Assembly (NCBI RefSeq): GCF_900107095.1
Contig: NZ_FNOR01000015.1
Coordinates: forward strand, 1-64,000
Source: Collimonas sp. OK242
GTDB taxonomy: Bacteria > Pseudomonadota > Gammaproteobacteria > Burkholderiales > Burkholderiaceae_D
Length of the DNA stretch: 64,000 bases
Direction: 5' to 3'
Every line of letters starts with the position of its first letter. Position 1 is the stretch's first letter. The notes below the pieces were generated by a model. It saw only the letters and a list, made by a program, of their open reading frames with translations, did no database searches and was not told the origin of the DNA. A program made the position numbers and the translations under genes. Shown here one piece after another: positions 4,016-60,388 of the stretch.

Positions 4016-4066
4016 CTCTTTGCGTTAGCTGCGGACATTCTCATCACATTTTCATGAAAGCGCACC

Positions 4067-22493: not shown

Positions 22494-22535
22494 AGGCAGT
22501 TGGGTCGACTTTAGTAATATTGTTCTGGACAGCGG

Positions 22536-23357
22536 TCAACACTCGAAGGTCGTTGACGGCGCTGCTGGTCGAGGATCGGCTATACGGATTGTAAACGCAG
22601 TACAGTTATCAAGTGGAACGTTGGACGCGCTGCCGTTCTTTTCTACCAGCGCGTGCATGTTGTCGAGCCAGTCTTGTGCAGAATCGGCCTGGGATGCCGC
22701 CTGCTCCATTTCTGCTTCGTTGATCCATTCCCAGAAACCGTCGGTGCAGATCAGGAACGCGTCATCGCCCTGCAATTCGGTCACGCTTTGGGTCACCGTG
22801 GCGGGCGCGCTACCCTCGACGCCGACTGCGGCCGACAAAATACTGCGCCGTGGATGCCGGCGCAATTGTTCGGCTGAACAATGGCCGGCATCGACGAATT
22901 GCTGGATCAGGCTGTGATCCCTGGTTGCGCTCAGCAGCTTGCCCTGGCGGAACAGATAGAGGCGAGTATCGCCCATATGGGCCCACAGTGCGCAACGGTT
23001 TTTTTGATCGATCAGCAACACTGCCACCGTCGAGCTCATGTCTTTCAAACGCGGAATCTGAGTTTGACGCCGCTTCAGTTGCTCCACCGCGTGCTCAATA
23101 TACGACTGCAGCGCGCGCGGACCGAAAGAAGCTTCTTCCACGAACATTTCCATGATCGAATGCACGACGACATTCGAGGCGATCTCGCCGCCATACTCGC
23201 CGCCGACGCCGTCGGCGACAATCACGCAGGCCAGCTCGTCCTGCAGCACGCTGCCCCAGGAATCCTGATTGACCTGCCTTCCGCCCGCATGACTTAGTTG
23301 CGCCAAACCCAGGACAACCGGAACCGCCGTGTCGCTGAGTAAGGATGGTTCAGGCAT
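22536..23357 (-). CDS. PP2C-family Ser/Thr phosphatase (PppA-like)
   Basis: A 273-residue PP2C (PPM) phosphatase. Metal-binding and catalytic motifs are complete: NQDSWG near residue 31, VADGVGG at 48-53, MGDTRLY at 128-134 and CTDGFWEW at 204-211. It should dephosphorylate Ser/Thr targets in the cytosol and counteract the neighbouring kinase, as PppA does for PpkA in T6SS. Its start overlaps the TagH stop by 8 bases, so translational coupling is likely. The kinase gene starts 43 nt after its stop. Confidence 0.93.
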   Translation of the reverse strand: MPEPSLLSDTAVPVVLGLAQLSHAGGRQVNQDSWGSVLQDELACVIVADGVGGEYGGEIASNVVVHSIMEMFVEEASFGPRALQSYIEHAVEQLKRRQTQIPRLKDMSSTVAVLLIDQKNRCALWAHMGDTRLYLFRQGKLLSATRDHSLIQQFVDAGHCSAEQLRRHPRRSILSAAVGVEGSAPATVTQSVTELQGDDAFLICTDGFWEWINEAEMEQAASQADSAQDWLDNMHALVEKNGSASNVPLDNCTAFTIRIADPRPAAPSTTFEC

Positions 23358-24615
23358 GCTGCGTCTCTTTTTGCGGCATCTCTTTCTTCAGCTTCTCGAC
23401 TTTTCTTTCGTAAGCCTGCAAAAACGCTTTGCCAAACAAAGTCTGGAAATCGTCCTGCGTGGCTTCCGCAATAATTCGTTGAAAGCGCTCGTTATAGGCA
23501 TCCCATAACTTTGCTTTACGGGTCGCCGGCAGCAATGCCTCCAGCACGCCGCCCTTTTTCAAGCGTTTTTCCATCACTTCAGGATTGAAACGCTGCAGCA
23601 TTTCGTTCATGGTCGCGCGCATGCCGGAAACCACGCCCACCTGGTGCGCTTGCAAATCCTGGTAAGCGTCCTGCATCGCTTCAGCGGCGCCCATGAAGCC
23701 GGGCATTTTCTTGCGCAGCATCTGGCTCAGCACCGTCTGGCTGTCGGCAAAGAATTTCAAGGGATTATTGTTGCGCACCACCACCTTGGTCACATCCGCG
23801 TGCGCTTCGCGTTTCACCAGCGCGCGCGTGGCGTTCAGGGCTATCGTGCCCTGCACGGCAGTGGCCAATAATTTGCCGACGGTTTCCATCAACTCTGGCG
23901 TCAATTCGTGCGTCAACGTCTCGGCCGGCAAACCTGCGCCTTTCATGAAGGCCTGAACCAGCGCTTCGCCGGATGCGGACGGCTCGGCGGCCGGACTGTC
24001 GGCGTCGCTGGTACTCACCGCAGCCGGAGCGGGCGCAGGCGCAGCAGCGGAACTTACGGCTGGGCGCTGCACCGTATGCACGGGGCGCAGTGGCGCAGCC
24101 GGTGATTGCGACGATGTCGACAGGGAGGCATTGGCGGTGGCCGCCAATTCCAGGTTCAACTGCGCCAGCGCCGCCAGGCGGGTCTCGGATACGCTCAGCA
24201 AAGGTTTGCCGCCGGGCTTACTGCTGTTTACCCGCTGCACAGGATTGGTCGACGGCTGGCCTGGCTGATTGTTCATGTCAGGGTTATCTTTCATTAAGTT
24301 GAGCTGCGTTTCGGCGCGCAATAAATACAGGCCGATCTGGATTTCATCGCCAATCTGCAAATCGTATTCACGCTCGGCATCGATCTCATGTCCATTCAAC
24401 AAGATCGGATTGGCGCGGCTGAGATTGGTGATGGTTTGGCGGACGCCGTCGCTTTTGATCGCTGCCTGGGTCCGCGACACAAAATTCCTGGGATCGGCCA
24501 GGACGAAATAATTCTCTTCGCTGCGACCGAGAGTTTTTGGCTCACGGCCGAATACGGCTGACAAAGGCGCTTCGGGCGCTACATTATTGTATGAAACAAC
24601 ACTAATTTTTATCAT
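23350..24615 (-). CDS. tagH: T6SS-associated FHA-domain protein TagH
   Basis: A 421-residue protein. The N-terminal FHA domain (residues about 20-105) has LGRSEENYFVLADPRNFVSR and ITNLSRANPILLNGHEI. A Pro/Ala/Ser-rich linker (about 120-215) leads to the T6SS FHA C-terminal domain: GAGLPAETLTHE, then RNNNPLKFFAD and MPGFMGAAEAMQDAYQDLQ. FHA domains bind phosphothreonine, and TagH/Fha1 is the switch of the threonine-phosphorylation pathway of T6SS. First gene of the four-gene cluster; no tss structural genes occur nearby. Confidence 0.93.
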   Translation of the reverse strand: MIKISVVSYNNVAPEAPLSAVFGREPKTLGRSEENYFVLADPRNFVSRTQAAIKSDGVRQTITNLSRANPILLNGHEIDAEREYDLQIGDEIQIGLYLLRAETQLNLMKDNPDMNNQPGQPSTNPVQRVNSSKPGGKPLLSVSETRLAALAQLNLELAATANASLSTSSQSPAAPLRPVHTVQRPAVSSAAAPAPAPAAVSTSDADSPAAEPSASGEALVQAFMKGAGLPAETLTHELTPELMETVGKLLATAVQGTIALNATRALVKREAHADVTKVVVRNNNPLKFFADSQTVLSQMLRKKMPGFMGAAEAMQDAYQDLQAHQVGVVSGMRATMNEMLQRFNPEVMEKRLKKGGVLEALLPATRKAKLWDAYNERFQRIIAEATQDDFQTLFGKAFLQAYERKVEKLKKEMPQKETQHA

Positions 24616-27796: not shown

Positions 27797-29146
27797 TTAA
27801 TTGCTGCGTGCGGCGCCGGATTTGGCCGAGTAGCCGTCATCCAGGGTTTTCAGGAAAGCGATCAGGTCTCCGATTTCCTCGTCATTCAGGGCGGGCGCAG
27901 CGCCTGCCTTGCGGTTCAAGGGAGCATCCAGGCTATCGATGTTGGCGCGGTAACGTGCCGGCAGATCGTCGAATTTGGCAAGCTTGCCTTTCACCTTCGG
28001 GTACCAGCTGGCGGGATTCGTATCGCGCGTGACATAAAAATGCATCATGTCGTCAAGCGTGTGGAAGCGGCCGTTATGAAAAAACACTTGGCGCGTCGCC
28101 ACGTTGCGCAAGGTGGGTGATTTGAACATGCCGCAGAATTCCGCTTCCTGCGCCATATCCTTGCGGCCGGGGCCGCAAATACCGAGATCGGCATACTTCG
28201 GATCGCGATTCGCTGCGATCTCCGGATTGCGCGGCACGCCCAGCGCCTGGAAGCCAAAATCGGTGAACTGCGCCGGCCGCCCTCCCGGCCCGGGGGTATC
28301 GATGTGGCATTTGGCGCAATTGCCCTTGGCGGGATTATTGAATAAACCGTAACCGCGCAATTCGGCCGGTGCAAAATCGGCGTTGCCAGCCATGGCTGCA
28401 TCGAATTTGCTGGTGTAGGGATGAAAGTTCGGGTCTTCAGTCTGGAATGCTTCCAGCGCCAGCGTCGCCTGTTCCAGCGCTGCTGCCGGATGATCGAAAA
28501 TGTCGGCGCCATAGACGCGCCGGAAATGCTCGGCATAGCCGGCGTTTTGCAGTTTGGCGACCACCGCGGCCGGATTCGGATTGGCCATTTCGTTGACGTT
28601 AAGCAGCGGAATCAACGCTTGTTCATGCAGCGAATCGACCGCGCCGTCGCGCGTGAAGCCGCCGGTAGGGCCCTCGTCCTCGGTCTCATCCGGGCCCGGC
28701 ACATAGTAGTGGCGCGTGAACTTGGGGGTGAAACCCAGATAGCGCAACGACGGCACGGCCCGCGTGCCCTGCCGCTGCATGTCGGCGCCGCCCGGTTGCA
28801 CCGCCAGGCCGTTGGGCGGTCCGTAAGCATGATCGGGACTATGGCAGGTGGCGCAAGACATTTTGCCCGAAGCCGACAGCGACGGGTCGAAGAATATTTG
28901 CTTGCCCAGACTCGCCGCCGCACTCAGCGCAGCCGGCGGCTCGGGGTAGCGCACCCACATCTTCAAGGACGGCTTCGGCGCGGCCGGGGTTGCACCAGCC
29001 GACGGCGCCAGCGCAGCTGCGCGTGTAACCCGGGCCGGCGTTTCTGCGTCGTGACAGCCGCCCAGCAGCGCAACGGCCAACAGCGCCACACCGATATGCC
29101 AGTGCTTACAAACAAGCCAATAATGATTGCTACTCAAAACTTTCAA
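27797..29146 (-). CDS. MauG/di-haem cytochrome c peroxidase-like lipoprotein (copy 1)
   Basis: A 449-residue lipoprotein. A hydrophobic segment ends in LLGGC (lipidated Cys31). Haem 1 is CATCH (Cys98, Cys101, His102) in KMSCATCHSPDHAYG; haem 2 is CAKCH (Cys277-His281). GPTGG...DGAVDSLHEQALIPL is the family mid-block. In VFFHNGRFHTLDDMMHFY the residue at the position of the peroxidase axial Met is Tyr371, as in MauG. Two extra Cys (324, 338) are also in the paralogue. The start TTG at 29146 is uncertain. Its neighbour upstream on the strand is a phosphoesterase lipoprotein. Periplasmic, membrane-anchored. Confidence 0.88.
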   Translation of the reverse strand: MKVLSSNHYWLVCKHWHIGVALLAVALLGGCHDAETPARVTRAAALAPSAGATPAAPKPSLKMWVRYPEPPAALSAAASLGKQIFFDPSLSASGKMSCATCHSPDHAYGPPNGLAVQPGGADMQRQGTRAVPSLRYLGFTPKFTRHYYVPGPDETEDEGPTGGFTRDGAVDSLHEQALIPLLNVNEMANPNPAAVVAKLQNAGYAEHFRRVYGADIFDHPAAALEQATLALEAFQTEDPNFHPYTSKFDAAMAGNADFAPAELRGYGLFNNPAKGNCAKCHIDTPGPGGRPAQFTDFGFQALGVPRNPEIAANRDPKYADLGICGPGRKDMAQEAEFCGMFKSPTLRNVATRQVFFHNGRFHTLDDMMHFYVTRDTNPASWYPKVKGKLAKFDDLPARYRANIDSLDAPLNRKAGAAPALNDEEIGDLIAFLKTLDDGYSAKSGAARSN

Positions 29147-29162
29147 TCCATTTCAATAATTT

Positions 29163-29216
29163 AATTGGGGTCAGAGTCAAATTTATTTGGACATATATTC
29201 GACTCTGACCCTAATT
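29163..29216. repeat. Long inverted repeat between phosphoesterase and di-haem genes (REP-like or terminator)
   Basis: A 16-bp stem with one G-T pair (AATTGGGGTCAGAGTC at 29163-29178, partner 29201-29216) and a 22-nt AT-rich loop. The GGGTCAGAGTC motif resembles dispersed palindromic elements seen in several betaproteobacterial genomes. It lies between the stop of phosphoesterase 1 (29225) and the start of di-haem protein 1 (29146), where it could end or stabilise the transcript. Confidence 0.6.
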
Positions 29217-29224
29217 TATGCGGC

Positions 29225-31645
29225 TTAGAAACTGAACATGGCCATCAGGTCGCCGATGGCGGTGGTGTTCACCGGGCGGTACTGATCGGCGGCGAGGCTG
29301 ACCGGGTTGGGCAGGTTGTCGCGGCTACGCGGCGAGAGCGGTGTCAGGCGCCAGTTGCGTTCGATGAATTTCAACACCGAGGAGTGATCGTAATAGGTGT
29401 GATCGATGAAGCCGGTGCGGGCGTAAGGCGATACCACCAGGAACGGGATGCGCGGGCCGTCGCCGAAGAAGTCGACGTTCTGGATGTAGCCGGTATCGAA
29501 ATGGCCGCCGCCTTCATCGGTGGTGACCAGGATCGCGGTATGGGCCCACAAGGCCGGATTGGCTTTGACCTTGGCGATCAGGTCCTGCAGAAACGCTTCA
29601 TAGCGGGCCGGCGCGGAATAGCCGGGATGACCGCTGTCAAGGTTCTTCGGCACCACAAACGATACCGATGGCAATGTGCCTTGGGCGACGTCGTTATAGA
29701 ACGTCGTCAGGCCGGCCAGGTTGGATTTCAGGTTGCTGTTCATGACGTTGCTGGACGCCACCAGCGGGTCGCCGATAGCGTTGTATTGAACTATTTGCGC
29801 AATCGCTACTGGAAACCCCAAGGCGGCGGCATCGGCGCTCACATCCGCTATGTCGCGGCCGCCGGTGTACCACTTCCAGCCAACGTTTTTCTTCGCCAGT
29901 CCTTCGGCGATGGTCGGTACGGTTTGCGGCGGGTAGTTGTAATTGTTGGGGCCGATCGGCTGCACGTTGCCGTTCATGTCGTAGCCGGGATTGTAATTGT
30001 TGACCAGGTAGTATTTGCCGGCGTCGCAATTGCTCTTGACCTTCTTGCCGCTCAGGAAATTCAGGATGGCGCCGACGCCAGGCTGGCCCGCGTCGGAACA
30101 GTTGACGTAGGAACCGCCCTGGTAGCCGTCTTGCGTATAGAAATTCGCGGTTTGCGCCAGCGGATTCGGATTCTCGATCTGGTTCGCCGGCGGTGCGCCA
30201 ACCGCGCCGCCAGTATTGAAGTACGGCAGGTCGCCGGTGGCGATGGTGAAGAAGTTGGCGCCGGTGCCGCCCATGATGCCCTGATGATAGTTATCGCTCA
30301 AGGCATATTGCTGCGCCAGCGATTTGAAGAAAGGCGCATCGCCGCTGGCCATGTTGAGGAAGCCCATCAGCTCGCCGCCTTGCCCCGGGTTGCTTGGCGT
30401 GATGCCTTTGGTGTCGCCGCCTTGGCCGACGCTGTCCGCGACCCAGGTAAACAGGTCGTGCTTGGCGTTGTCGCCGCCGGTTTGCTGCCACATCTGGAAG
30501 AAACGATGCACCGGATCGCCGGTCTGGGCGCTGGTCGCGGTACCGTAAGGCACATATTTGGTGAGCTGGAACGGCCCGCTCGGCAGATTCCCCGGGAAGC
30601 GGGTATCCGGCACGCCGCCCGGATCCTGGAAGGTCGGCGGCGCGAGTTCGCCTATCGCTGTCGGCTGCGGCAAGGTGGGGTAAGCGCTGCCGCGAGCCGG
30701 GTTAAGCGCATAGGCGGTCTGGGTCGTGCCCTGGTTTTGCAGCGCCAGGCTGAAATTCGGGCCGGGCGTGCCGTCGGCGTTGATGATGCCTTGCGATAAC
30801 AGATTATTCACGGTTTGACCCTGAGGCGGCTGATACGCCCCGAATACCGCATCGAAGGTTTGGTTTTCGCCGACGATCACGATGACGTTCTGGATCGGCG
30901 TGGTAGTCGGCCCGTTGTTCAGCGCCACCACGGACTGGATCGCGGCGGCTGGCAATGCGCCGCTGACGTTGCCGGTGGCCGGAATCGTCAGGACCGCCCG
31001 ATTGGCGTCGGCGCCGACTGCGATCTGGCCGGTATGCACAGTGAAGTGCGTCAGGTCGAACAAATTGTCGAGTGGATCGGCGGCGGAGGCTTGGTATACG
31101 GTGCTGCCTATCGGGTCGCTGGTTTCGCTGGCGGGAACGTTGAGCGCAGTGAACAAAGGCTGCAGCGGGAAGGAAACGTCGCTGACCGCCTGCGCTATGC
31201 TGATGGCGCTGATTTTGGCGGCACTGATTTGCGCCGCAGTCGGGCTGCCGTTCGGGATCTGGCCGAGCACGCGCTGGGTGATCAGCGAGGTCAGCGGATT
31301 CAGATTGGCGCGCACGGTACTGCCTAGACTTGCTTGTGTCGAAGCCGGATTGATGACGGCGGACAGGGTAGCGGCACTGCCGTCGGCATCGTTGAATGGC
31401 GCTGTCAAAATGAAGGGCGCAGTACCTTTGAGCGCCAGCGTGAACTTGCCATTGGCATCGGTGAGCGCCGTCTGGACGTTCTGGCCGCTGCTGTCGGTGA
31501 TGGTGACGGTGACGCCAGCCAGTGCTTTACCGCTCGCCGCAACGCCGCTGACCGTGGCGCCGCCGGCGCCGGACGAACTACCGCCGCTGCAGCCGCTCAG
31601 ATAGACTAGCGTTGCGCATGCCAGCGCAAGGGAACGAGGTTTCAT
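29225..31645 (-). CDS. Lipoprotein phosphoesterase, PF04185 type (copy 1)
   Basis: An 806-residue lipoprotein. Signal with LSGC (Cys19), a carboxypeptidase-regulatory-like beta domain (about 30-110), then a phosphoesterase domain from about residue 250: IQNVIVIVGENQTFDAVFG, NYHQGIMGGTGANF, TTDEGGGHFDTGY, and SPYARTGFIDHTYYDHSSV. The family includes phospholipase C and acid phosphatase AcpA, using acidic and His residues to hold the metal. A surface-exposed or periplasmic phosphatase or phospholipase is expected. Upstream of di-haem protein 1 on the same strand; paralogue at 38522. Confidence 0.88.
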   Translation of the reverse strand: MKPRSLALACATLVYLSGCSGGSSSGAGGATVSGVAASGKALAGVTVTITDSSGQNVQTALTDANGKFTLALKGTAPFILTAPFNDADGSAATLSAVINPASTQASLGSTVRANLNPLTSLITQRVLGQIPNGSPTAAQISAAKISAISIAQAVSDVSFPLQPLFTALNVPASETSDPIGSTVYQASAADPLDNLFDLTHFTVHTGQIAVGADANRAVLTIPATGNVSGALPAAAIQSVVALNNGPTTTPIQNVIVIVGENQTFDAVFGAYQPPQGQTVNNLLSQGIINADGTPGPNFSLALQNQGTTQTAYALNPARGSAYPTLPQPTAIGELAPPTFQDPGGVPDTRFPGNLPSGPFQLTKYVPYGTATSAQTGDPVHRFFQMWQQTGGDNAKHDLFTWVADSVGQGGDTKGITPSNPGQGGELMGFLNMASGDAPFFKSLAQQYALSDNYHQGIMGGTGANFFTIATGDLPYFNTGGAVGAPPANQIENPNPLAQTANFYTQDGYQGGSYVNCSDAGQPGVGAILNFLSGKKVKSNCDAGKYYLVNNYNPGYDMNGNVQPIGPNNYNYPPQTVPTIAEGLAKKNVGWKWYTGGRDIADVSADAAALGFPVAIAQIVQYNAIGDPLVASSNVMNSNLKSNLAGLTTFYNDVAQGTLPSVSFVVPKNLDSGHPGYSAPARYEAFLQDLIAKVKANPALWAHTAILVTTDEGGGHFDTGYIQNVDFFGDGPRIPFLVVSPYARTGFIDHTYYDHSSVLKFIERNWRLTPLSPRSRDNLPNPVSLAADQYRPVNTTAIGDLMAMFSF

Positions 31646-31863
31646 GAAATTATCCTGTTATCGGAATGATGGTTATAGTCGGCTAGATGTGCATGGGCGC
31701 CAGGTGCGGACAGCATGCATTCAAATAGTATTCTATTGTCATCTGGAAATATGACTTCCTGATGTCAGAATTTTCCAGTTCTCTAAAAACAACAAATCGT
31801 TTAGAGTATGCCGTCCATTGCCTTGGATGAATTAGTGTGTTGCGTTCAGAAAAAAGGCAGCTT

Positions 31864-31971
31864 ATGAAAATGTCGCCGATACTCCTGCTGCCTGGCGCCT
31901 TGCTGGTCTCGGATATGGCGCTGGCGCAAACAAACAATATTTCTCCGATAAGGTCTTTTCAAGCAACATGA
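31864..31971 (+). pseudogene. Signal-peptide remnant of a truncated exported protein
   Basis: A 35-residue reading frame with a good AAAGGCAG ribosome site. It starts with a complete Sec signal peptide (MKMSPILLLPGALLVSDMAL, then AQ at the likely cleavage site), then runs only 13 more residues before TGA. The TGA overlaps the ATG of the next gene (ATGA). Probably the 5' stub of a gene whose body has been replaced by the downstream glycosyltransferase-like gene, although a genuine micro-peptide cannot be excluded. Confidence 0.35.
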
Positions 31972-33218
31972 CTAATTCCAATAATCTGGCGGCGGCCTAT
32001 GCCGCCTATCAAACTGAGGCGAATTTAGACGCCGCGCTGAGATTCATTCGTCTATTGCGCAGCGCCGGAAAAGTTGAAGACGCGATTGCCCTCGCCCATC
32101 AATGGTCGTCCAAAGCTGAAACGTTGATGGGTCGGGCGCAGCTTGGCATCGATATGAGTTATCTCGGCATGTTCGCAGCAGCGGAAATATTGTTGCAAGA
32201 GGTGTTGCCGCAACTCGCGTCCGATGCCGAAGCCTACTACCAGGTACAGACCGAACTGTCGGTAGTGAAATACTGTCAGGGTAATTTTCATGAAGCTCAT
32301 GCGCTGCAGAAATCGCTGCACCAGCCACAGTGGTGCGAGGTGTGGACACGTCTGGCCTCGGCCAATCGGGACAACAGCTGGTTTTTACCGTTCAATGACA
32401 AGGTTCTTCACAATCAGCCGGTCGCCGGCAAGTGCATTCTGGTATCCGGTGAGGGCGGGGCCGGCGATCTGCTGCAACTGTGTCGTTACATGGAGAGACT
32501 GCGGCAAGAAGGAGCTGCGACTATCTATTGCAGCGCGCCGCCGTCTCTGCACGGCTTACTGAAAAATGGCGGTCTGGCTATCGAGGTGGTTGAAGCATCG
32601 CATGAGCTGATGCGTGAATGCGATTTCATCACCTGGCCTTTCGCCTTGTTTACCCGTTATCAGCAGAGTCCTTATTTTCCCAGTGCGGCTGATGCTTATC
32701 TGGCGCTGGCCGCCGATTACATACTGCCAGACTTGATTCAGGAAAAACTCCGGGGGCAAGCGGGCAATCGGAAAAGGATAGGGTTGAACTGGCGCAGCGG
32801 CACTACGGTACGTCATGAACCGTTCCGCTCGATGGAATTGCAAACCTTGCTGCCGCTGCTTGAAAATTCCTCCGCCGAGTTTTTCTCTCTGCAGGTGGGT
32901 GAGCTGAACGAGCAAGAAAAAATGCTGATGGAACGCCATCGGATAGTCGATCTGGGGGCGCACCTGCGCTCGTTCGAAGATACCGCCCACGTGATGGAGC
33001 AGCTGGACCTGCTGATTTCCGTCGATTCCGCGCCGGCGCATCTGGCCGGCGCACGCAACCGGCCGGTGTGGCTCATGTTGGCGCAAGCAAGCGATTACCG
33101 GTGGTACGACTGCCAGCGTTTCACGCCTTGGTATTCTTCCATGCGGCTGTACCGCCAGGCCAGGTTGGGCGACTGGCAGCCGGTGATCGCCGACATGGCT
33201 GAGGCATTGCGCGGCTAG
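31968..33218 (+). CDS. TPR/glycosyltransferase-like (GT-B fold) protein
   Basis: A 416-residue protein. The first 130 residues look like TPR helices (AALRFIRLLRSAGKVEDAIA and similar). The C-terminal domain resembles heptosyltransferase/TPR-GT-B fold enzymes: KRIGLNWRSGTTVRHEPFRS and the nucleotide-sugar pocket LDLLISVDSAPAHLAG, then RPVWLMLAQASDYRWYD. No signal peptide. It probably transfers or binds sugars on proteins or lipids; exact donor unknown. It starts within the stop of a 35-codon stub. It converges with the FkbM methyltransferase gene, 76 nt away. Confidence 0.75.
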   Translation: MTNSNNLAAAYAAYQTEANLDAALRFIRLLRSAGKVEDAIALAHQWSSKAETLMGRAQLGIDMSYLGMFAAAEILLQEVLPQLASDAEAYYQVQTELSVVKYCQGNFHEAHALQKSLHQPQWCEVWTRLASANRDNSWFLPFNDKVLHNQPVAGKCILVSGEGGAGDLLQLCRYMERLRQEGAATIYCSAPPSLHGLLKNGGLAIEVVEASHELMRECDFITWPFALFTRYQQSPYFPSAADAYLALAADYILPDLIQEKLRGQAGNRKRIGLNWRSGTTVRHEPFRSMELQTLLPLLENSSAEFFSLQVGELNEQEKMLMERHRIVDLGAHLRSFEDTAHVMEQLDLLISVDSAPAHLAGARNRPVWLMLAQASDYRWYDCQRFTPWYSSMRLYRQARLGDWQPVIADMAEALRG

Positions 33219-33294
33219 AGTCCGCCAGTCGGGAAATGAGTACGGTGCATGCCAACGTCGCAGATGGTTTTTTCAGATTTCTTGAGTGCTGCTC

Positions 33295-34119
33295 TCAAAC
33301 TGCATTTAAGAACACTACATTGTCCTTCAACGTGATCTGATGGACCGTTGGGTCGCTCATATGGACAGCAATGATGTTCAGCCCTGCGGGAAAGACGCGA
33401 TAGCCGAGGCCGGTGACGAAATTCTCAATGGCGGCACGATCGGACTTGAGGACTTCGATGATCATGATCGGGCGATGCCTCGATAGCGCTGACTGAGCAC
33501 CGCGCAATACATCCATTTCCATCCCTTCGACATCTAGCTTTACCAAGTCCAGACGTTCGAGATCGAGCGAATCCAAGCTGACCAGGGGAACCGTGTTGCA
33601 AGCCGAGGCATCATAGGAAATCCGCTGTCCGATGAATTCGTTGTTATCGTTCTGGCGCATCTCTAAACTACCGAAACTCGCGGGTGTGAAATAGTCCGGC
33701 GCCGGCACGGCTAACTCGCCGCACTGTTCGCCAAGAGCGGCAAGCCTCACACGGGCATTCAAGCAATTATTCAAAGCTACATTGCCGGCTAAAGCGTAAT
33801 ACACGGCTTCTTGCGCTTCAAAGCTCAATACCCGCCCCCAACCATACATGTGCCGAGCCCACTCGATCGTGTGTACGCCAATATTTGCGCCGCCGTCGAT
33901 TGCAACGATACCGTCGCCGAAATGGCTGCGGCGACAGTTGAGCAATGCCAAGGCGAAACCAATCTCGCTTTCGTCGAAACTTGAATTGCTCAGTATCTGG
34001 TAGCCGACACCGTAACCCTCATTGCCGTTGACCATATGGTAATCATTGCGATTGACAATCATGCTGCCGTGATTGGAGGCTGCTAGCACGAAAGCGATGG
34101 GGCGGCGTGGAAATGACAT
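33295..34119 (-). CDS. FkbM-family SAM-dependent methyltransferase
   Basis: A 274-residue methyltransferase. The SAM-binding loop is IAIDGGANIGVHTIEW and the next motif is GRVLSFEAQEAVYYAL; the family signature LVKLDVEGMEMDVLRGA follows near residue 200. FkbM proteins O-methylate sugars, polyketides or glycans. With the convergent glycosyltransferase-like protein it could modify a glycan. An AAAGGA site precedes the ATG at 34119. Confidence 0.88.
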   Translation of the reverse strand: MSFPRRPIAFVLAASNHGSMIVNRNDYHMVNGNEGYGVGYQILSNSSFDESEIGFALALLNCRRSHFGDGIVAIDGGANIGVHTIEWARHMYGWGRVLSFEAQEAVYYALAGNVALNNCLNARVRLAALGEQCGELAVPAPDYFTPASFGSLEMRQNDNNEFIGQRISYDASACNTVPLVSLDSLDLERLDLVKLDVEGMEMDVLRGAQSALSRHRPIMIIEVLKSDRAAIENFVTGLGYRVFPAGLNIIAVHMSDPTVHQITLKDNVVFLNAV

Positions 34120-34430
34120 TATTCAAAATCCTTTAGGATGGATTGCTGCCGGCAATTCAGCGCTCCGGATATAGCTGTGAATGAGATTCGGGAAAAAAAA
34201 CCGATAGTCGAATGCCAGTTTCTCACAACTTGTCGCACCAGCAGTCATATCGATAGCAGCGCGCCAGATTGTGATTATTTATAAAATCTGTTATCTATGA
34301 GCAACGACATGAAAAATGTACAAAAGCATGGATCCGTTTGGAACCGGCTGGGATAATTGCTGTGTTTTAGAAAAGTGGCAATCCCGACACCTTTGGTAGA
34401 TGTGATCAATTTGAATCCCGGAGAGAGCAG
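34120..34430. other. Intergenic region with divergent promoters
   Basis: About 310 bases between the FkbM gene (leftward) and the Liv-type binding protein (rightward). No reading frame, RNA gene or strong hairpin was recognised. It is AT-richer than its surroundings, as expected for two promoters. Confidence 0.5.
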
Positions 34431-35570
34431 ATGCAGATTAATTCCAAGACCCAGTTGCTGACCATGGCCGTTGCCTTAGCGCTGACCGCTACCGTGCAGG
34501 CGCAGGAACAAGTGGTCAAAATCGCCCACGTCGGCCCGATCACCGGCCCGGTCGCGCATGTCGGCAAGGACAATGAAAACGGTGCGCGCATGGCGATCGA
34601 CGACCTGAACGCCAAACATCTGGTCATCGGCGGCAAGCAGATCCAGTTCGTTTTGCAGGCTGAAGACGACGGCAGCGATCCGAAGCAAGCTACCAGCATC
34701 GCCCAGAAGCTGGTTGACGCCAAAGTGGCGGCGGTTGTCGGGCATCTGCAATCCGGCACTTCGATCCCTGCTTCGAAAATCTATTTCGACGCCGGCATCC
34801 CGCAAATTTCACCTTCCGCGACCAGCGCCAAATATACCGAACAAGGTTTCAACACGACTTTCCGCGTGGTGGCCAACGACTCCCAGCTCGGCGCTGCGAT
34901 GGGCCGTTATGCAGCAAGAACCTTGCATGCGAAACGCATCGCGGTGATCGACGACCGTACCGCCTACGGCCAGGGACTGGCCAACGAGTTCCTCAAAGAC
35001 GCCAAAGCCAACGGCGTCGAGATTGTGTCCACGCAGTACACGAACGATAGAGCCACCGATTTCAGCGCCATCCTCACTGCCGTCAAGGCCAAGCAGCCAG
35101 ACCTGATTTTCTTCGGCGGCATCGATGCCAGCGCCGGCACCATGTTGCGCCAGATGCGGCAACTTGGCATCAGCGCCAATTTCATGGGCGGCGATGCTAT
35201 CTGCACCGGCGCCCTGCCGCGCCTGGCCGGCGAAGGTTTGATCGACGACAAGGTGTACTGCGCGATCGCAGGCGGGGTCGAAAATCCTGCGCCGCTTGAC
35301 GCGTTCAAGGCGGCTTACAAGAAGAAATACGATGCCGACATCGTCCAGTACGCGCCGTACACCTACGACGCCGTGATGATCATTGCCAAAGCCATGCAAC
35401 AGGCCAATTCGGTCGATCCTAAAAAATATCTGCCGGCGCTCAGCAAGATCCAGTACACCGGCGTGACAGGCAAGATCGCCTTTGACGAGAAAGGCGATAT
35501 CAAGAACGGCACGCTGTCGATCTATACCTTCAGGAAAGGCCAGCAGACCTTGCTGACGCTGACGAAGTAA
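34431..35570 (+). CDS. Periplasmic Leu/Ile/Val-type substrate-binding protein (LivJ family)
   Basis: A 379-residue protein with a Sec signal peptide (MQINSKTQLLTMAVALALTA, cut near VQA-Q). The mature part matches LivJ/LivK: KIAHVGPITGPVAHVGKDNENG, then VVGHLQSGTSIPASKIY, AVIDDRTAYGQGLA and the TLYT...KGQQTLLTL end. It should deliver amino acids or related solutes to an ABC transporter, but no livHMGF genes are present, so it is an orphan or works with a distant permease. A GGAGAGAG site precedes the ATG. Confidence 0.93.
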   Translation: MQINSKTQLLTMAVALALTATVQAQEQVVKIAHVGPITGPVAHVGKDNENGARMAIDDLNAKHLVIGGKQIQFVLQAEDDGSDPKQATSIAQKLVDAKVAAVVGHLQSGTSIPASKIYFDAGIPQISPSATSAKYTEQGFNTTFRVVANDSQLGAAMGRYAARTLHAKRIAVIDDRTAYGQGLANEFLKDAKANGVEIVSTQYTNDRATDFSAILTAVKAKQPDLIFFGGIDASAGTMLRQMRQLGISANFMGGDAICTGALPRLAGEGLIDDKVYCAIAGGVENPAPLDAFKAAYKKKYDADIVQYAPYTYDAVMIIAKAMQQANSVDPKKYLPALSKIQYTGVTGKIAFDEKGDIKNGTLSIYTFRKGQQTLLTLTK

Positions 35571-35604
35571 GCAGGATTTGCAGATCCACTCCTGAGGAGG
35601 GGCG

Positions 35605-36324
35605 TTGGCACAAGCAGCAAGCCGTACCGGGCGATTGTTCCTGCTGATGGACGCCTTGCGCAGCCATCGCCGGCCGGTGACGGCTGCCCGGCTGGCAGAG
35701 GATATGTCAGTCTCGGTGCGCACCATCTACCGCGACATGCAAACCTTGATCGAGTTGGGCGCGCCGATCGAGGGTGAGGCCGGTCTCGGCTATTTGCTGC
35801 GCTCCGGATTCTTCCTGCCGCCGCTGATGTTCAGTGAAGACGAGCTGGAAGCGCTGGTGCTGGGCGCGCGCTGGGTGCAGCGGCAAGGCGACGATGGCTT
35901 GACGCAAGCCGCTGCCAACGCGCTGAGCAAGATCGCCACCGCCTCGCCCGCCGACCTGCGCGACAGTATGGCGAACATGGGTTTGTGGCCGGCCAGCTAT
36001 CAACCGGAGCCGGCCGGCCAGTCGCCAAGCCCGAACCGCACGCTCGGCCCGATTCGCGAAGCGATCCGGCGCCAGCACAAAATCAGCATCAGTTATCGCG
36101 ACGAACACGGCAGCGCCACCGAAAGATTGATCTGGCCGATTGCGATCGCGTTCTTCGAAGGCAAACGCCTGGTCATCGGCTGGTGTGAGCTGCGCAGCGG
36201 ATTCCGCCATTTTCGTAACGACAGGATCAGCGTATTGACGGTGACCAAGATACGCTATCCGCAGCAGCGCAGCATGTTGTTGCAGGCCTGGCGCCGCGAG
36301 AATTCCTTCGCGCAAGACCAGTAA
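35605..36324 (+). CDS. YafY-type HTH/WYL transcriptional regulator
   Basis: A 239-residue protein: N-terminal winged HTH (RLFLLMDALRSHRRPVTAARLA then VSVRTIYRDMQTL), middle helical region, and a WYL-like C-terminus (ISYRDEHGSATERLIWPIAI with GWCELRSGFRHFRNDRI). WYL proteins sense nucleotides or other small ligands. TTG start with a GAGGAGGGG ribosome site. The GST gene lies 92 nt downstream with a perfect palindrome between, its probable operator. Confidence 0.88.
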   Translation: MAQAASRTGRLFLLMDALRSHRRPVTAARLAEDMSVSVRTIYRDMQTLIELGAPIEGEAGLGYLLRSGFFLPPLMFSEDELEALVLGARWVQRQGDDGLTQAAANALSKIATASPADLRDSMANMGLWPASYQPEPAGQSPSPNRTLGPIREAIRRQHKISISYRDEHGSATERLIWPIAIAFFEGKRLVIGWCELRSGFRHFRNDRISVLTVTKIRYPQQRSMLLQAWRRENSFAQDQ

Positions 36325-36344
36325 CATTTACTTGTCGAAATACT

Positions 36345-36363
36345 ACTGACACAGACTGTCAGT
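36345..36363. promoter_or_regulatory. Palindromic operator upstream of the GST gene
   Basis: ACTGACA (36345-36351) and TGTCAGT (36357-36363) form a perfect inverted repeat with a 5-nt spacer, 54 nt before the GST ATG and just after the WYL gene. YafY-like regulators are often found with this type of TGACA/TGTCA dyad before GST or glyoxalase genes. Confidence 0.6.
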
Positions 36364-36416
36364 GACCCGGGACTAAGATGCAGGCATCGCATCAACCACC
36401 TCGGGAGTTCATCATC

Positions 36417-37049
36417 ATGCGCCTCTATCATCATCCGATTTCAAGCAATGCACGCCGTGCCGTCATGACCGCCCATCATCTCGGGCTGCCGCTCGAGCTG
36501 GTGCAGATCGACCTGTCCAGCGCCGACCAGCGCAAGCATTTGCTGGCGCTTAATCCGAACGAGAAAATCCCGGTGCTGGTGGATGGCGATTTCATCTTGT
36601 GGGAATCTTGCGCGATCATGCAATACCTGGCCGACAAGACGCCGGGACAGACGGTCTATCCGACCGAGTTGCGGGCCAGGGCCGATGTCAACCGCTGGAT
36701 GTTCTGGTCGGCCCAGCATTTCGCGCCGGCGATAGCGATTTTTTACTGGGAAAATTTCATCAAGGGGCTGATCGGCGCCGGCCGGCCTGATACGATCGAG
36801 TTACAGCGCGGACTGATCGAGCTGGAAACCTTTGCCGGCGTACTGGATGGGCATTTGGCGCAGCGGCAATGGGTATCCGGAACCGGCCTGACCCTGGCCG
36901 ACCTGGCGCTTGCGGCACCGCTGATGGCGGCCGCGCCGGGCCGCGTGCCGCTGGCGCAGTACCGCAACTTGCTGGCCTGGTTCAGTCGCGTGCAGGAGCT
37001 TGATGCGTGGCGCCAGACTGCGCTTGAGGAAGAGCTTGCGATGGCGTGA
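36417..37049 (+). CDS. Glutathione S-transferase
   Basis: A 210-residue GST. The thioredoxin-like N-terminal domain (MRLYHHPISSNARRAVMTAH) carries the catalytic Ser of the SSNARR type. The cis-Pro motif is NEKIPVLVDGDFILWESCAIMQYLAD, and the C-terminal helical domain starts near residue 85 with VSGTGLTLADLALA as the N-capping motif. It conjugates or reduces electrophiles with glutathione. Start at 36417 chosen for the GGGAG site. Under likely control of the WYL regulator upstream. Confidence 0.92.
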   Translation: MRLYHHPISSNARRAVMTAHHLGLPLELVQIDLSSADQRKHLLALNPNEKIPVLVDGDFILWESCAIMQYLADKTPGQTVYPTELRARADVNRWMFWSAQHFAPAIAIFYWENFIKGLIGAGRPDTIELQRGLIELETFAGVLDGHLAQRQWVSGTGLTLADLALAAPLMAAAPGRVPLAQYRNLLAWFSRVQELDAWRQTALEEELAMA

Positions 37050-37067
37050 TCACATTTAAGGGCGATT

Positions 37068-38336
37068 TTAAGGATGAAATCCGTCGTTCAACGTTTTCAG
37101 GAAGGCGATGACATCCCTGATTTCGCTATCCGTCAGTGCCGGCCGGTCGCCTGGTTTGCGATCGAACGGCGCTTCGACATTGACGTTGCCATGATATTCC
37201 TTGGGCAGGTCGTCATATTTGCGCACCGTTCCATCCCTGTCGCGCGGATACCATTTCTGCGGCTGGGTATCGCGCTGCACATAGAATTTCAACACCTGTT
37301 CCAGGCTGGTGAACGCGCCGTTATGGAAAAACACCTGGCGCGTGGCGACGTTGCGCAAGGACGGTGTCTTGAACCTGCCGCAATACTCGGTCTTGTCCTT
37401 GAGGTCGGTGCGATCCGGGCCGCATAAGCCCATATCGAAATATGTCGGGTCGGCGTTGGCGGGGATATGCGGGTTGCGCGGCACGCCGATGGCGATCAGG
37501 CCGTAATCGGTAAATTGCGGAAACGCTCCGCTAGCCGTGATTTCGCTGATATGGCATGAAGCGCAATTGCCTTTGGCGGTATCGTTGAACAGGCGCAAGC
37601 CATTCAACTCCTGTTTGCTGAGCTGGGTTTGGCGGCGCAAAAAGGCGTCGTACTTGCTGTTGTACGGATAAAACTCGGCCGGGCTTTCCTGGAATACTTC
37701 GAGCGCCATCAGCGCCCATTTGAAGGCTTGCTCCTGATTGTCGAAAATGTCCTCGCCGAAATTTGCCCGGAACTGCGCTGCATAACTGGCTTTTTTCAGC
37801 TTCGCCACCACCTCGGCCGCGTTCGCATTACCCATCTCGTGCATCGACAACAGCGGAATCCGCGCCTGATCGTGGGTGGAAGGCGCGCGGCCGTCCCAGT
37901 TGTGGCCACCGGTAGGGCCGGCGTCGATGCTGTCGTTGCCGTCGTCATCGAAGAAATGTTCGGTGAAGGCCGGCACATTCTGTATGTAACGCAATGAAGG
38001 CACAGCGCGCGTGCCCAGTGCTTTCATTTCCTTGCCGCCCAGTTGTACCGCCAGCTTATTCGGCGGCCCGAACGCATGCTCGGGGCTGTGGCAGGTAGCG
38101 CAAGACATCTTGCCCGAGGCTGAAAGTGAAGGATCGGAAAACATGGTGCGGCCCAGCGCAGTCATGGCGGCTACTGACGGCTGTTTTTTCAGCGTCGGCG
38201 CATAGGTCGCACCGAGGTAGGCCGGGCTTGCCGATTTTGCGGTCGCCGCCACCCCGGCTTCTGCCTGCCGCTGGCCGCAGCCGTTCAGGAGTAGCGCGGC
38301 TATGCCGCTGAGGAGTGCAATGACAGCAGGTTTCAT
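37068..38336 (-). CDS. MauG/di-haem cytochrome c peroxidase-like lipoprotein (copy 2)
   Basis: A 422-residue lipoprotein, paralogue of the protein at 27797-29146. Lipobox LLNGC (Cys20). Haem 1 CATCH (Cys79-His83), haem 2 CASCH (Cys258-His262). GPTGGHNWDGRAPSTHDQA matches the family mid-block more classically than copy 1. Tyr352 in VFFHNGAFTSLEQVLKFY sits where peroxidases have the axial Met, as in MauG. Extra Cys pair 305/319 conserved with copy 1. Start at 38336 (MKPAVIALLSG). Divergent from phosphoesterase copy 2, with a palindrome between. Periplasmic, lipid anchored. Confidence 0.9.
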   Translation of the reverse strand: MKPAVIALLSGIAALLLNGCGQRQAEAGVAATAKSASPAYLGATYAPTLKKQPSVAAMTALGRTMFSDPSLSASGKMSCATCHSPEHAFGPPNKLAVQLGGKEMKALGTRAVPSLRYIQNVPAFTEHFFDDDGNDSIDAGPTGGHNWDGRAPSTHDQARIPLLSMHEMGNANAAEVVAKLKKASYAAQFRANFGEDIFDNQEQAFKWALMALEVFQESPAEFYPYNSKYDAFLRRQTQLSKQELNGLRLFNDTAKGNCASCHISEITASGAFPQFTDYGLIAIGVPRNPHIPANADPTYFDMGLCGPDRTDLKDKTEYCGRFKTPSLRNVATRQVFFHNGAFTSLEQVLKFYVQRDTQPQKWYPRDRDGTVRKYDDLPKEYHGNVNVEAPFDRKPGDRPALTDSEIRDVIAFLKTLNDGFHP

Positions 38337-38399
38337 AGAAATGGCCAGGTCCCGGGTGACGCGCGAGGCGCTGCGTCGAATGGGAGGCAAGACTAGCAG

Positions 38400-38416
38400 C
38401 GTTCTGTGACAGAACG
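38400..38416. promoter_or_regulatory. 17-bp palindrome between di-haem gene 2 and phosphoesterase gene 2
   Basis: CGTTCTG-TGA-CAGAACG (38400-38416) is perfectly symmetric and lies in the 185-nt divergent control region, 64 nt upstream of one start and 106 nt upstream of the other. A shared operator is likely; the regulator is unknown. The same motif was not seen by eye at the first pair. Confidence 0.5.
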
Positions 38417-38521
38417 ATGACACATTCTCTTGCGAAAAAATAAATGATGATGGACGGCACATTTCATACCGCTGAAATATTCGAAGCATAGGATTGCGCT
38501 TTTTATCGCCCAGGAGGGTTT

Positions 38522-40663
38522 ATGAAGCGGACCATGAAATGGCTGCCGGTAACGGTAGCGACGGTAACGTTGTCGGCAGGCTTGAGCGCATGCGGCGGCG
38601 GTGGCGGCGGCTCGGTTGGTGATTCGGGCACGGTGACCAACGGCCAGGTGACCGGCAGCTATTATGAAAACGCCCAAGTGTGTTTCGAAGACAAGATCAA
38701 GAAAGCGACATGCGATGTCGCCTCCCCGGTGGTCAAGACTGCGGCCGACGGTTCATATTCGCTCAAAGGCCAAGGCGCAGTGGTGGCCACTATCGACACC
38801 AGCGTTACGCGTCATGAGGCGCTGGGCGACAAAGGCAGCCCTGTGACGCAGAAACTGGTGTTCCGCGCACCTGCCGGACGCAGCGCATACGTCAGTGCGA
38901 TCTCGACCGAGCTGGCCGCGGCGATGGACGCCAACGGCGGCGATTTCGCCGATGCCAGCAAGAAGCTGGCCGCCAAAATCGGTACCGCTGAAGCCAACCT
39001 GCTGGCAGATATCAACAAGCTCGGCGCCGATGACCTGGCCAAGCTGAAGGCTGAAGCGGCGGAAATCAATGACGCCATTGCAGATGCTGTGGCCCAGGGC
39101 GACAGCGATGATTTCGGTCGGGCCTTGAACGGCGCGCTGGCGAGGAAAAAAATCCAGAACGTGGTGGTGATCTTCGCGGAAAACCGCGGCTTCGACAATC
39201 TGTACGGCCTGTTCCCTGGCGCCAACGGCATTCCCGGCGTCAATCCGACTTCTGCTTCCAGCTACATTCCGCAAAAAGACTTCGATGGCAGCACCCTGCC
39301 CGTCTTGCCGCCGACCTGGGGCGGCATGACCGTGGCCGGCCAGAGCACGGTCATCACCCAGGCGCAATCTGCCAATCTGCCGAACAAGCCGTTCCAGATC
39401 GATGATGCCAACAGCCCGATCACCATGTCGTCGGCAGTGATTACCCGCGATCTGGTGCACCGTTTCTACAATAACCAGATGCAGATCAATGGCGGCAAGA
39501 ACGATAAATTCACCGCTTACTCCGATGCCGGCGGCCTGAGCATGGGCTATTACGACGGCAGCAAGATGAAGCTGTGGAACATCGCCAAGCAATACACGCT
39601 GGCGGACAATTTTTTCATGGGCACCTTCGGCGGCTCGTTCCTCACCCATCAATACCTGATCTGCGCCTGCGCCCCGACATATCCGAACGCCGATGCCGCT
39701 ACCTCGCCAGCCAAGAACAGTATCTCGGCCGTCACTCTGGACGCCAGCGGCAACCTGGTCGGCCTGACTCCAGGCACCGGCATGCCGACTTCGGTATTGA
39801 ACGGTGCGCCGGTTTATCAAAAGGACAGTACCATCACGCCGAAAGATGCCGCCGGCATGTTCTATGCGGTCAACACCATGCAGCCGCCGTATCAGCCTAG
39901 CGGCAATAGCGCTGGCGCCGTGGCCGCGTATGCCGATCCAAGCAAGGCCACTACCCTGCCGACCCAGAGCCAGACCACCATCGGCGATCAGCTGACAATC
40001 AAGGGTATCGACTGGGCCTGGTATGCCGGCGCCTGGAATGCCGCGCTGGCTGATGCGCCGAATGCCAGCCGCAGCGTCATCTATAGTGGCAAGATTCAGT
40101 TCCAGCCGCATCACCAGCCGTTCAACTACTATAGCCGCTTCGACCCGGCAACTGCGACTGGCGCTGCCGAACGTGCCAGCCATCTGAAGGATTTCGACGC
40201 CTCGTTCCTGCAGGATGCTGCAGCCGGCAAGTTGCCGCCGGTGGCGTTCTACAAACCGCAGGGTAATTTGAACCAGCATCCCGGTTACGCCAGCGTGGCC
40301 GACGGCGATGCCCATATCGCCGATGTGATCGCCAAGCTGCAAGCCAGCCCGCAATGGAAGCATATGCTGATCGTGGTGACTTACGATGAAAACGGCGGCT
40401 TCTGGGATCATGTGGCGCCGCCGAAAGGCGATCGCTGGGGCCCGGGCACACGCTTGCCGACCCTCCTGGTGTCGCCATACGCGAAGAAAGGGTTCGTCGA
40501 TCACACCCAGTACGATACCGCATCCATCCTGCGTTTCATCACGCATCGTTATTCGTTGCCGGTATTGGATGGCATCACCGCGCGCGACAAGGCGCTGGTG
40601 GCGAACGGCGGCAAGCCTATGGGTGATTTGACGGGGGCATTGACGCCGGTACCGCAAGAGTAA
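38522..40663 (+). CDS. Lipoprotein phosphoesterase, PF04185/AcpA type (copy 2)
   Basis: A 713-residue lipoprotein. Signal with LSACG (Cys22), a Gly-rich linker, a short beta domain (about 45-110), a helical region, then the phosphoesterase domain from about residue 215: VVVIFAENRGFDNLYGLFPG, TYDENGGFWDHVAPP, GTRLPTLLVSPYAKKG and VDHTQYDTASILRFI, all classical for acid phosphatase/phospholipase C relatives. Start preceded by CAGGAGG. A 15-bp stem terminator follows. Divergent from the di-haem protein copy 2. Confidence 0.92.
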   Translation: MKRTMKWLPVTVATVTLSAGLSACGGGGGGSVGDSGTVTNGQVTGSYYENAQVCFEDKIKKATCDVASPVVKTAADGSYSLKGQGAVVATIDTSVTRHEALGDKGSPVTQKLVFRAPAGRSAYVSAISTELAAAMDANGGDFADASKKLAAKIGTAEANLLADINKLGADDLAKLKAEAAEINDAIADAVAQGDSDDFGRALNGALARKKIQNVVVIFAENRGFDNLYGLFPGANGIPGVNPTSASSYIPQKDFDGSTLPVLPPTWGGMTVAGQSTVITQAQSANLPNKPFQIDDANSPITMSSAVITRDLVHRFYNNQMQINGGKNDKFTAYSDAGGLSMGYYDGSKMKLWNIAKQYTLADNFFMGTFGGSFLTHQYLICACAPTYPNADAATSPAKNSISAVTLDASGNLVGLTPGTGMPTSVLNGAPVYQKDSTITPKDAAGMFYAVNTMQPPYQPSGNSAGAVAAYADPSKATTLPTQSQTTIGDQLTIKGIDWAWYAGAWNAALADAPNASRSVIYSGKIQFQPHHQPFNYYSRFDPATATGAAERASHLKDFDASFLQDAAAGKLPPVAFYKPQGNLNQHPGYASVADGDAHIADVIAKLQASPQWKHMLIVVTYDENGGFWDHVAPPKGDRWGPGTRLPTLLVSPYAKKGFVDHTQYDTASILRFITHRYSLPVLDGITARDKALVANGGKPMGDLTGALTPVPQE

Positions 40664-56152: not shown

Positions 56153-56163
56153 AGGAAGACGTC

Positions 56164-58740: not shown

Positions 58741-58778
58741 CAGAACTAATTGCTACTAATGGAATTAAAGGAACTGCC

Positions 58779-59126
58779 ATGCACCATGACCATCAAAGCA
58801 GTAACTGGATTGCAGTTTGTCCGCTGGACGACATCGTACCGAATACCGGCGTCTGTGCGCTGATCAACGGCGAACAGGTTGCCGTATTCCATGTGATCGA
58901 TGGCGAGCATCGCGTGTTCGCCATCGGTAATTACGATCCGAACGCCGAGGCGGCGGTGCTGTCGCGCGGCCTGGTCGGCAGCCTTGGAGAACGTATCGTG
59001 GTCGCTTCGCCTATCTATAAGCAGCATTTCGATTTGCAAACCGGCGAATGCCTGGAAGCGCCGGAACATTCGGTGAGCGCCTATCCGGCCCGCATCAGCG
59101 ACGGCAAGGTCTGGGTAGGTGCATGA
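58779..59126 (+). CDS. nirD: Nitrite reductase small subunit
   Basis: A 115-residue Rieske-fold small subunit: WIAVCPLDDIVPNTGVCALI, FAIGNYDPNAEAAVLSRGLV and IVVASPIYKQHFDLQTGECLE are NirD blocks. It lacks the Rieske Cys/His pairs, as normal for NirD, and acts with NirB. AAAGGAAC ribosome site. Its stop overlaps the next start by 4 bases. Confidence 0.95.
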   Translation: MHHDHQSSNWIAVCPLDDIVPNTGVCALINGEQVAVFHVIDGEHRVFAIGNYDPNAEAAVLSRGLVGSLGERIVVASPIYKQHFDLQTGECLEAPEHSVSAYPARISDGKVWVGA

Positions 59127-60376: not shown

Positions 60377-60388
60377 GCGGGAGCGTAT

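Follow-up and report, generated by a model that had tools for sequence, protein, structure and literature searches.

BthA-like di-haem peroxidases form conserved gene pairs with PF04185 phosphoesterases in Collimonas and other bacteria

Introduction

The di-haem peroxidase BthA was reported to form a stable bis-Fe(IV) state and to turn over H2O2 (Rizzolo et al. 2019, PMC6405878). According to that paper, the bthA gene always adjoins a putative purple-acid phosphatase gene (phosA), and the partner phosphatase was proposed to be oxidised by BthA. A second class, BthB, was also mentioned there, and the transcripts of bthA and phosA were raised by anaerobic growth (+5 and +14, respectively). The function of BthA was called not yet discovered in 2019 (PMC6405878), and no later answer was found in the open-licence literature. 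Two further systems, MauG and MbnH, are relevant for comparison. MauG acts on another protein in the maturation of tryptophan tryptophylquinone; MbnH is a MauG-like enzyme paired with one dedicated substrate protein, MbnP.

In this study, two gene pairs were analysed from Collimonas sp. OK242, both located within a stretch of 64,000 nucleotides (nt) at positions 1 to 64,000 of contig NZ_FNOR01000015.1, hereafter called the window. Each pair consists of a di-haem CCP_MauG protein gene (DHA or DHB) and a PF04185 phosphoesterase gene (PEA or PEB). The pairing is real, conserved and more general than what was found in print, and it represents a new variation on the partnership of BthA with a phosphatase that has already been published. 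The initial annotation, which was made from the sequence of the window, knew of no described system of this composition; this has to be corrected, as PMC6405878 already describes the BthA-phosA pair with the same maturation idea. Besides BthA, no such pair was found in the open-licence literature searched (titles and beginnings of abstracts, among the part of the matches listed). New are the PF04185 pairs, a likely exchange of partners, and the PhoB-box-like sites in both window promoters.

The two gene pairs of the window

The four genes were found at the coordinates and on the strands first predicted, with one pair on the same strand and the other divergent. In pair A, the phosphoesterase PEA (29225..31645, minus strand; PF04185, 186.3 bits, cut-off 23) lies upstream of the di-haem protein DHA (27797..29146, minus strand; CCP_MauG, 126.6 bits) at a distance of 78 nt, and is presumably the first gene of a PEA-DHA operon. 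In pair B, DHB (37068..38336, minus strand; CCP_MauG, 124.4 bits) and the acid phosphatase PEB (38522..40663, plus strand; PF04185, 302 bits, cut-off 23) are divergent and separated by a 185-nt stretch. The open reading frame of DHB has an alternative longer start at 38489; the start at 38336 yields a lipoprotein signal. Both DHA and DHB contain two CxxCH haem sites and the CCP_MauG domain, and they share 52% sequence identity. The identity between PEA and PEB is 30% across the catalytic domain, in agreement with the early view that the phosphoesterases are not close copies.

PEB passes the TIGR03397 model of Burkholderia-type acid phosphatases (747 bits, cut-off 362.75); PEA falls outside by score (161.9 bits). 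The best sequence match of PEB among the solved structures is 2D1G, which we take to be the acid phosphatase AcpA of Francisella. PEA is composed of an N-terminal region followed by the catalytic domain, in which the residues E260, N261, T461, D710 and E711 were assigned by position. Lipoboxes were read by eye in all four translations (LGGC in DHA, LNGC in DHB, LSGC in PEA, and LSAC in PEB); a crude lipobox script, which misses some, recovered only those of pair B.

The 4.98-Mb genome contains five PF04185 and four CCP_MauG matches in total. Its own bthA ortholog is a separate gene (locus L119 on contig C20, 6437-7684; 57.7% identity to the BthA fragment). It immediately follows the gene of a PF00149 metallophosphoesterase lipoprotein, and the two together (L119:6437-9129) are the third phosphatase/di-haem pair of the genome.

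Relationship of the di-haem proteins to BthA, MauG and MbnH

Among the solved structures, the best match of DHB was 6nx0 (271 bits), with MauG behind at 150 bits. We take 6nx0 to be BthA of Burkholderia thailandensis. This assignment is consistent with the residues given in PMC6405878. The residues reported as important in that paper are the Tyr ligand, the distal Gln/Pro/Glu, a Cys pair, and a basic residue at the calcium site. The Tyr ligand of the six-coordinate haem (Tyr463 in BthA) is present in DHA, DHB and every aligned row, MauG included. The distal residues Gln267, Pro271 and Glu277 of BthA are also kept in DHA and DHB, and are common to MauG; whereas the Cys415-Cys430 pair is kept in DHA and DHB and is absent from MauG. 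The position of Lys444, which replaces the calcium ion in BthA, is Arg in both DHA and DHB, but Thr in MauG; the K444R variant of BthA was reported to behave like the wild type (PMC6405878). The inter-haem Ser257 of BthA is replaced by Arg in DHA and by Trp in DHB, the latter being shared with MauG; within the BthA clade (n = 4), this position is Ser in two members, Ala in one and Trp in one. The full set of BthA hallmarks (distal Gln/Pro/Glu, Tyr, Cys pair, and Arg/Lys at the calcium position) was found in 56/56 paired dereplicated rows, and also in 14 rows of the sister clade E. By analogy with BthA, DHA and DHB would be expected to carry out peroxide chemistry.

The window proteins also differ from these relatives. 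DHA and DHB fall outside the BthA clade in a tree of 103 proteins, and their partners belong to PF04185 rather than phosA; therefore, they are not BthA orthologs in the narrow sense. DHB shares 40.2% identity with the BthA fragment and is divergent from its partner gene. The phosA product was named a purple-acid phosphatase, and its counterpart in this genome (L119) belongs to PF00149; whereas the window partners are PF04185 enzymes. Both DHA and DHB also missed the cut-offs of the MauG model TIGR03791 (89.0 and 96.9 bits, against 443.85) and of the MbnH model TIGR04039 (83.5 and 105.7 bits, against 362.85). The likeness to the MbnH-MbnP system lies in the pairing of a MauG-like enzyme with one dedicated protein; however, the window partner is a PF04185 enzyme.

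Conservation of the pairing

The pairing was surveyed in 79 named loci (from the best 80 of 123 relatives, in which close kin are favoured) and in 88 regions surrounding matches from searches of 399 order-level and 299 phylum-level genomes. In these searches, only the four or five best candidates per genome were scored, one match at a contig end (G003) was left out, and the named loci and the genome-survey loci may repeat a species. Matches were found in 48/399 order genomes and 29/299 phylum genomes. In the tree of 103 dereplicated di-haem proteins, reconstructed by a quick method, 57 rows form one clade with a Shimodaira-Hasegawa-like approximate likelihood ratio (SH-aLRT) support of 99, and in 56 of them a PF04185 gene lies no more than 700 nt away. 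Before dereplication, 99/104 informative clade members were paired within this distance, including 17 of type A, 38 of type B, 15 of type C, 26 of type D, and three of type 99. Outside the clade, the corresponding number was 0/49: 46 loci have neither neighbour, and the remaining three, all from the BthA clade, lie beside a phosA-like PF00149 gene. The profiles of the neighbour search were built from the PF04185 proteins found here and the phosA of this genome, so other phosphatases beside these unpaired di-haem genes would be missed.

Such adjacency is above chance. The 31 genomes chosen for their di-haem genes contain 92 PF04185 matches in about 154 Mb, the paired and split ones included; at this density, a PF04185 match would fall within 3 kb of any one gene in about 0.4% of cases. 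Twelve of the 31 genomes hold a single PF04185 match, which has a di-haem neighbour in 11 of them; in the twelfth (G071), the di-haem gene is 2.3 kb off. The nearest named loci to the window pairs are from Collimonas and Glaciimonas, and the paired clade extends over the Burkholderiales, genomes outside the class of the window (f44 and f41), and metagenome-assembled genomes labelled Gammaproteobacteria and Rhodospirillales. These results support the functional linkage that had been supposed from the two window arrangements, and its retention during the divergence of the phosphoesterases; they show that the pairs are also present outside close relatives.

Some loci were treated separately. The clade members L037, L054 and L218 and the clade-E locus L164 are cut by contig ends and were left out of the counts; L045 and L179, in which the tail of the phosphoesterase is present at the contig end, were scored as paired. 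L218 and L277 are from one genome (G051), where the di-haem gene and the phosphoesterase are both found at contig ends, oriented as in a divergent type-B pair split by an assembly gap. The 15 distant loci L227-L241 scored below the limit set for the tree and were left out; none of them has a PF04185 match within 3 kb. Dereplication at 85% removed four of the five unpaired exceptions along with near-identical kin, so the clade of these was judged by similarity.

Partner subfamilies and their exchange

The paired clade comprises five di-haem subclades, each with its own phosphoesterase subfamily and one gene order. Types A, C, D and 99 are encoded on the same strand as their partners; type B is divergent, with a PEB-like or a PE122-like partner. 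Pair A of the window is of type A, and pair B of type B. One representative partner of each type passed the Pfam cut-off for PF04185. In the trees of both families, whose comparison had been suggested as a check, each di-haem subclade goes with one phosphoesterase subfamily. Within types, the sequence identities of the two partners are correlated (r = 0.90 for A, 0.71 for B, and 0.82 for D; C only 0.25). Between types, the medians are 44-50% identity for the di-haem proteins and 17-28% for the phosphoesterases. The types stand on long stems in the phosphoesterase tree, and unpaired families (phospholipase C-like) are equally close to the types as the types are to each other; this tree should be read with the warning that long branches meet in it. 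The divergence between the phosphoesterase types suggests either a much faster evolution or several re-partnerings of the di-haem gene, and the latter seems more likely.

The prediction that the pair proteins are lipoproteins acting in one compartment stands for the two window pairs, as read by eye; whereas most di-haem proteins of type C and of type D lack a lipobox (found in 0/15 and 1/26, respectively, by the crude script).

PhoB-box-like sites

Upstream regions were scored against a PhoB-box consensus with 14 scored positions. The divergent DHB/PEB promoter contains the site GTGTCATCGTTCTGTCAC (38406..38423, minus strand; 13/14), and the site CTGACATCAGGAAGTCAT (31751..31768, minus strand; 11/14) is located 106 nt upstream of the PEA start. 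The window holds three sites of at least 11/14, two of them in the pair promoters; the third (4043-4060, 11/14) ends six bases before a DUF2145 gene (4067-4852). Only two sites with at most one mismatch occur in the whole 4.98-Mb genome, including the one at 38406; however, a backward control pattern likewise gave two, so the site at 38406 is informative by its place and not by number. The other one-mismatch site of the genome (L295:2036-2053, contig C15) is located just upstream of a LysR-like gene, as assigned by eye. One of the two pstS genes has TCGTCATAAAGCTGTCAT upstream (12/14).

Among the dereplicated upstream regions, 5/9 of type A and 8/17 of type B reached 11/14, against 30/600 control upstreams, which begin at stop-to-stop frames of which some are not genes. 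The same level was reached upstream of 3/51 di-haem genes that lack a neighbour, and in 2.5 and 6.1% of shuffles. The PEA-DHA site, a candidate PhoB box, has a score that is reached by 30/600 controls and by 5/9 type-A relatives; 13/14 was reached by 0/600 controls. Judged by its letters, the DHB/PEB promoter carries a putative PhoB box, as a Pho-regulon promoter would. The tie to phosphate use that had been put forward as a working idea is strengthened by these sites for types A and B. A term search of PMC5082522, a paper on phosphate starvation in Pseudomonas, gave no hit to a peroxidase, phosphoesterase or cytochrome.

Possible function of the pairing

With moderate confidence, we propose that each pair consists of a secreted phosphate-ester hydrolase and a dedicated di-haem peroxidase of the BthA type under PhoB control, in which the peroxidase acts on or for its partner. 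The two proteins would share the envelope compartment, and phosphate shortage would switch on both genes jointly through the PhoB-like sites. The hydrolase would then release phosphate, while the di-haem enzyme would consume H2O2 via a bis-Fe(IV) state held by its Tyr-His haem. The latter might either bring the phosphatase into its working form by oxidising one of its residues, or maintain the right redox state of the phosphatase or its metal centre. The conserved adjacency, the pairing by subfamily, the catalytic residues known from BthA and the promoter sites as sequences are observed; the peroxide chemistry is carried over from BthA, and PhoB control and a direct action on the partner are inferences.

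Several observations weigh against this proposal. The pairing is not absolute, because five clade members (L026, L052, L160, L220 and L221) are without a PF04185 gene within 700 nt; in L160 and L221 the gene is farther off, at 3.3 and 2.3 kb. In L036 and L053 the adjoining phosphoesterase is split into pieces, and the sister clade E is without a PF04185 neighbour. The promoter sites are unevenly distributed: the second pstS has no site above 10/14; 11/14 was reached by 1/8 upstreams of type D, 0/3 of type 99, 0/4 of the PE122 form of B and 0/3 of phosA, which are not enriched; and type C showed weak enrichment (3/10). The predicted structures are poor, with a mean predicted local distance difference test score (pLDDT) of 53.3 for PEB and 48.7 for PEA; residues 30-240 of PEA are mostly at pLDDT 75-93, and its catalytic domain is badly modelled. 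No single oxidation target emerged from the Trp, Tyr, Cys, Met and His columns of each partner type, as no motif is common to all. The partners span two families of different fold (PF04185 here, and PF00149 for phosA); two folds and several subfamilies being served, one fixed modification site is disfavoured. Moreover, BthA turns over H2O2 efficiently with an artificial donor (PMC6405878), and therefore scavenging alone is possible. A maturation of the formylglycine type was set aside because the residue presumed to act as nucleophile, assigned by position from its role in AcpA and phospholipase C, is a Thr in PEA and a Ser in PEB. The evidence leaves three options: a type-specific modification, a redox upkeep of the metal centre or the protein, and a shared regulon only.

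The last of these is possible, though less likely: both genes might respond to a common stress (shortage of phosphate or oxygen, or peroxide) with no mutual chemistry, and the peroxidase would guard the envelope at large. The PhoB-like sites and the good peroxidase activity of BthA (PMC6405878) speak for such a link, which would also allow for the several subfamilies and two folds of the partner. However, a common regulon needs neither adjacency in 99/104 loci nor a di-haem subclade for each phosphatase subfamily, and types D, 99 and phosA stay paired without the sites. More tentatively still, BthA-like peroxidases might serve extracellular phosphatases in general as interchangeable redox partners: combined anew with at least five subfamilies of PF04185 and one of PF00149, they would activate these by peroxide-driven oxidation, and the supply of oxygen or peroxide would gate phosphate scavenging.

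A site-specific cysteine chemistry, in which vicinal Cys residues near the active site are oxidised and the phosphatase is peroxide-gated, seems improbable. In PEB, the codons of C381-A-C383 (39662..39670, plus strand) lie nine and eleven residues past Ser372, presumably the nucleophile as in AcpA. The C-x-C motif occurs in 36/37 paired type-B phosphatases (not dereplicated) and in 0/6 members of the paralog clade that lacks a di-haem neighbour; likewise, C-C was found in the 21/21 type-D and 3/3 type-99 sequences examined, and is absent from three unpaired relatives. However, the type-B contrast is a single evolutionary event on the tree and is not significant. L184 is paired without C-x-C, whereas L160 and L276 have the motif without an adjacent di-haem gene, as does L277, probably by an assembly break. 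Vicinal Cys are missing from types A and C, and hence from one of the window pairs, and two unpaired relatives share both Cys of the catalytic part of type A. For a type-specific modification, the Cys motifs seen in types B, D and 99 may serve as a lead, not a proof.

Finally, chance neighbours duplicated jointly in one recent event are very improbable and already contradicted by the survey; the initial annotation, too, had argued against one local duplication. In Collimonas antrihumi (L010) and Collimonas sp. OK307 (L011, L039), no more than about 10 and 16 kb separate type A from type B, as would fit such an event. However, the two types form separate clades, occur in other genera with different gene order, are carried together with D and 99 on four contigs of genome G553, and have PEA and PEB in different PF04185 subfamilies.

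Other genes of the genome and the window

The fourth di-haem copy of the genome is BthA-like and heads a run (L120:3748-8281, contig C21) with porin-like (by eye, no Pfam match), FMN_bind, ApbE and cytochrome b561-like (under the Pfam cut-off) genes, and no phosphatase neighbour was found within this run. Similar clusters recur in Undibacterium and others, and clade E may serve a flavin-based electron path in the envelope. A second TIGR03397 phosphatase (L122:6210-7892, contig C24; 824 bits), with a twin-arginine-like signal read by eye, has neither a di-haem neighbour nor C-x-C, and is convergent with a gene that resembles a TonB receptor by eye. Elsewhere in the window, a protein kinase with a weak PEGA match and an FHA-like protein (by eye) are encoded in the same gene run (20811-24615). 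Consecutive genes at 55804-63154 encode nitrite/sulphite reductase-like, pyridine nucleotide-disulphide oxidoreductase and molybdopterin oxidoreductase proteins, and resemble an assimilatory nitrate set.

Implications

With many phosphatase partners, PhoB-like promoters and three pairs in one genome, the question of BthA function becomes testable in the soil bacterium Collimonas. If the peroxidase does mature phosphatases, the pairs would represent a new class of protein maturation, and would link oxygen, peroxide and the use of phosphorus in soil.

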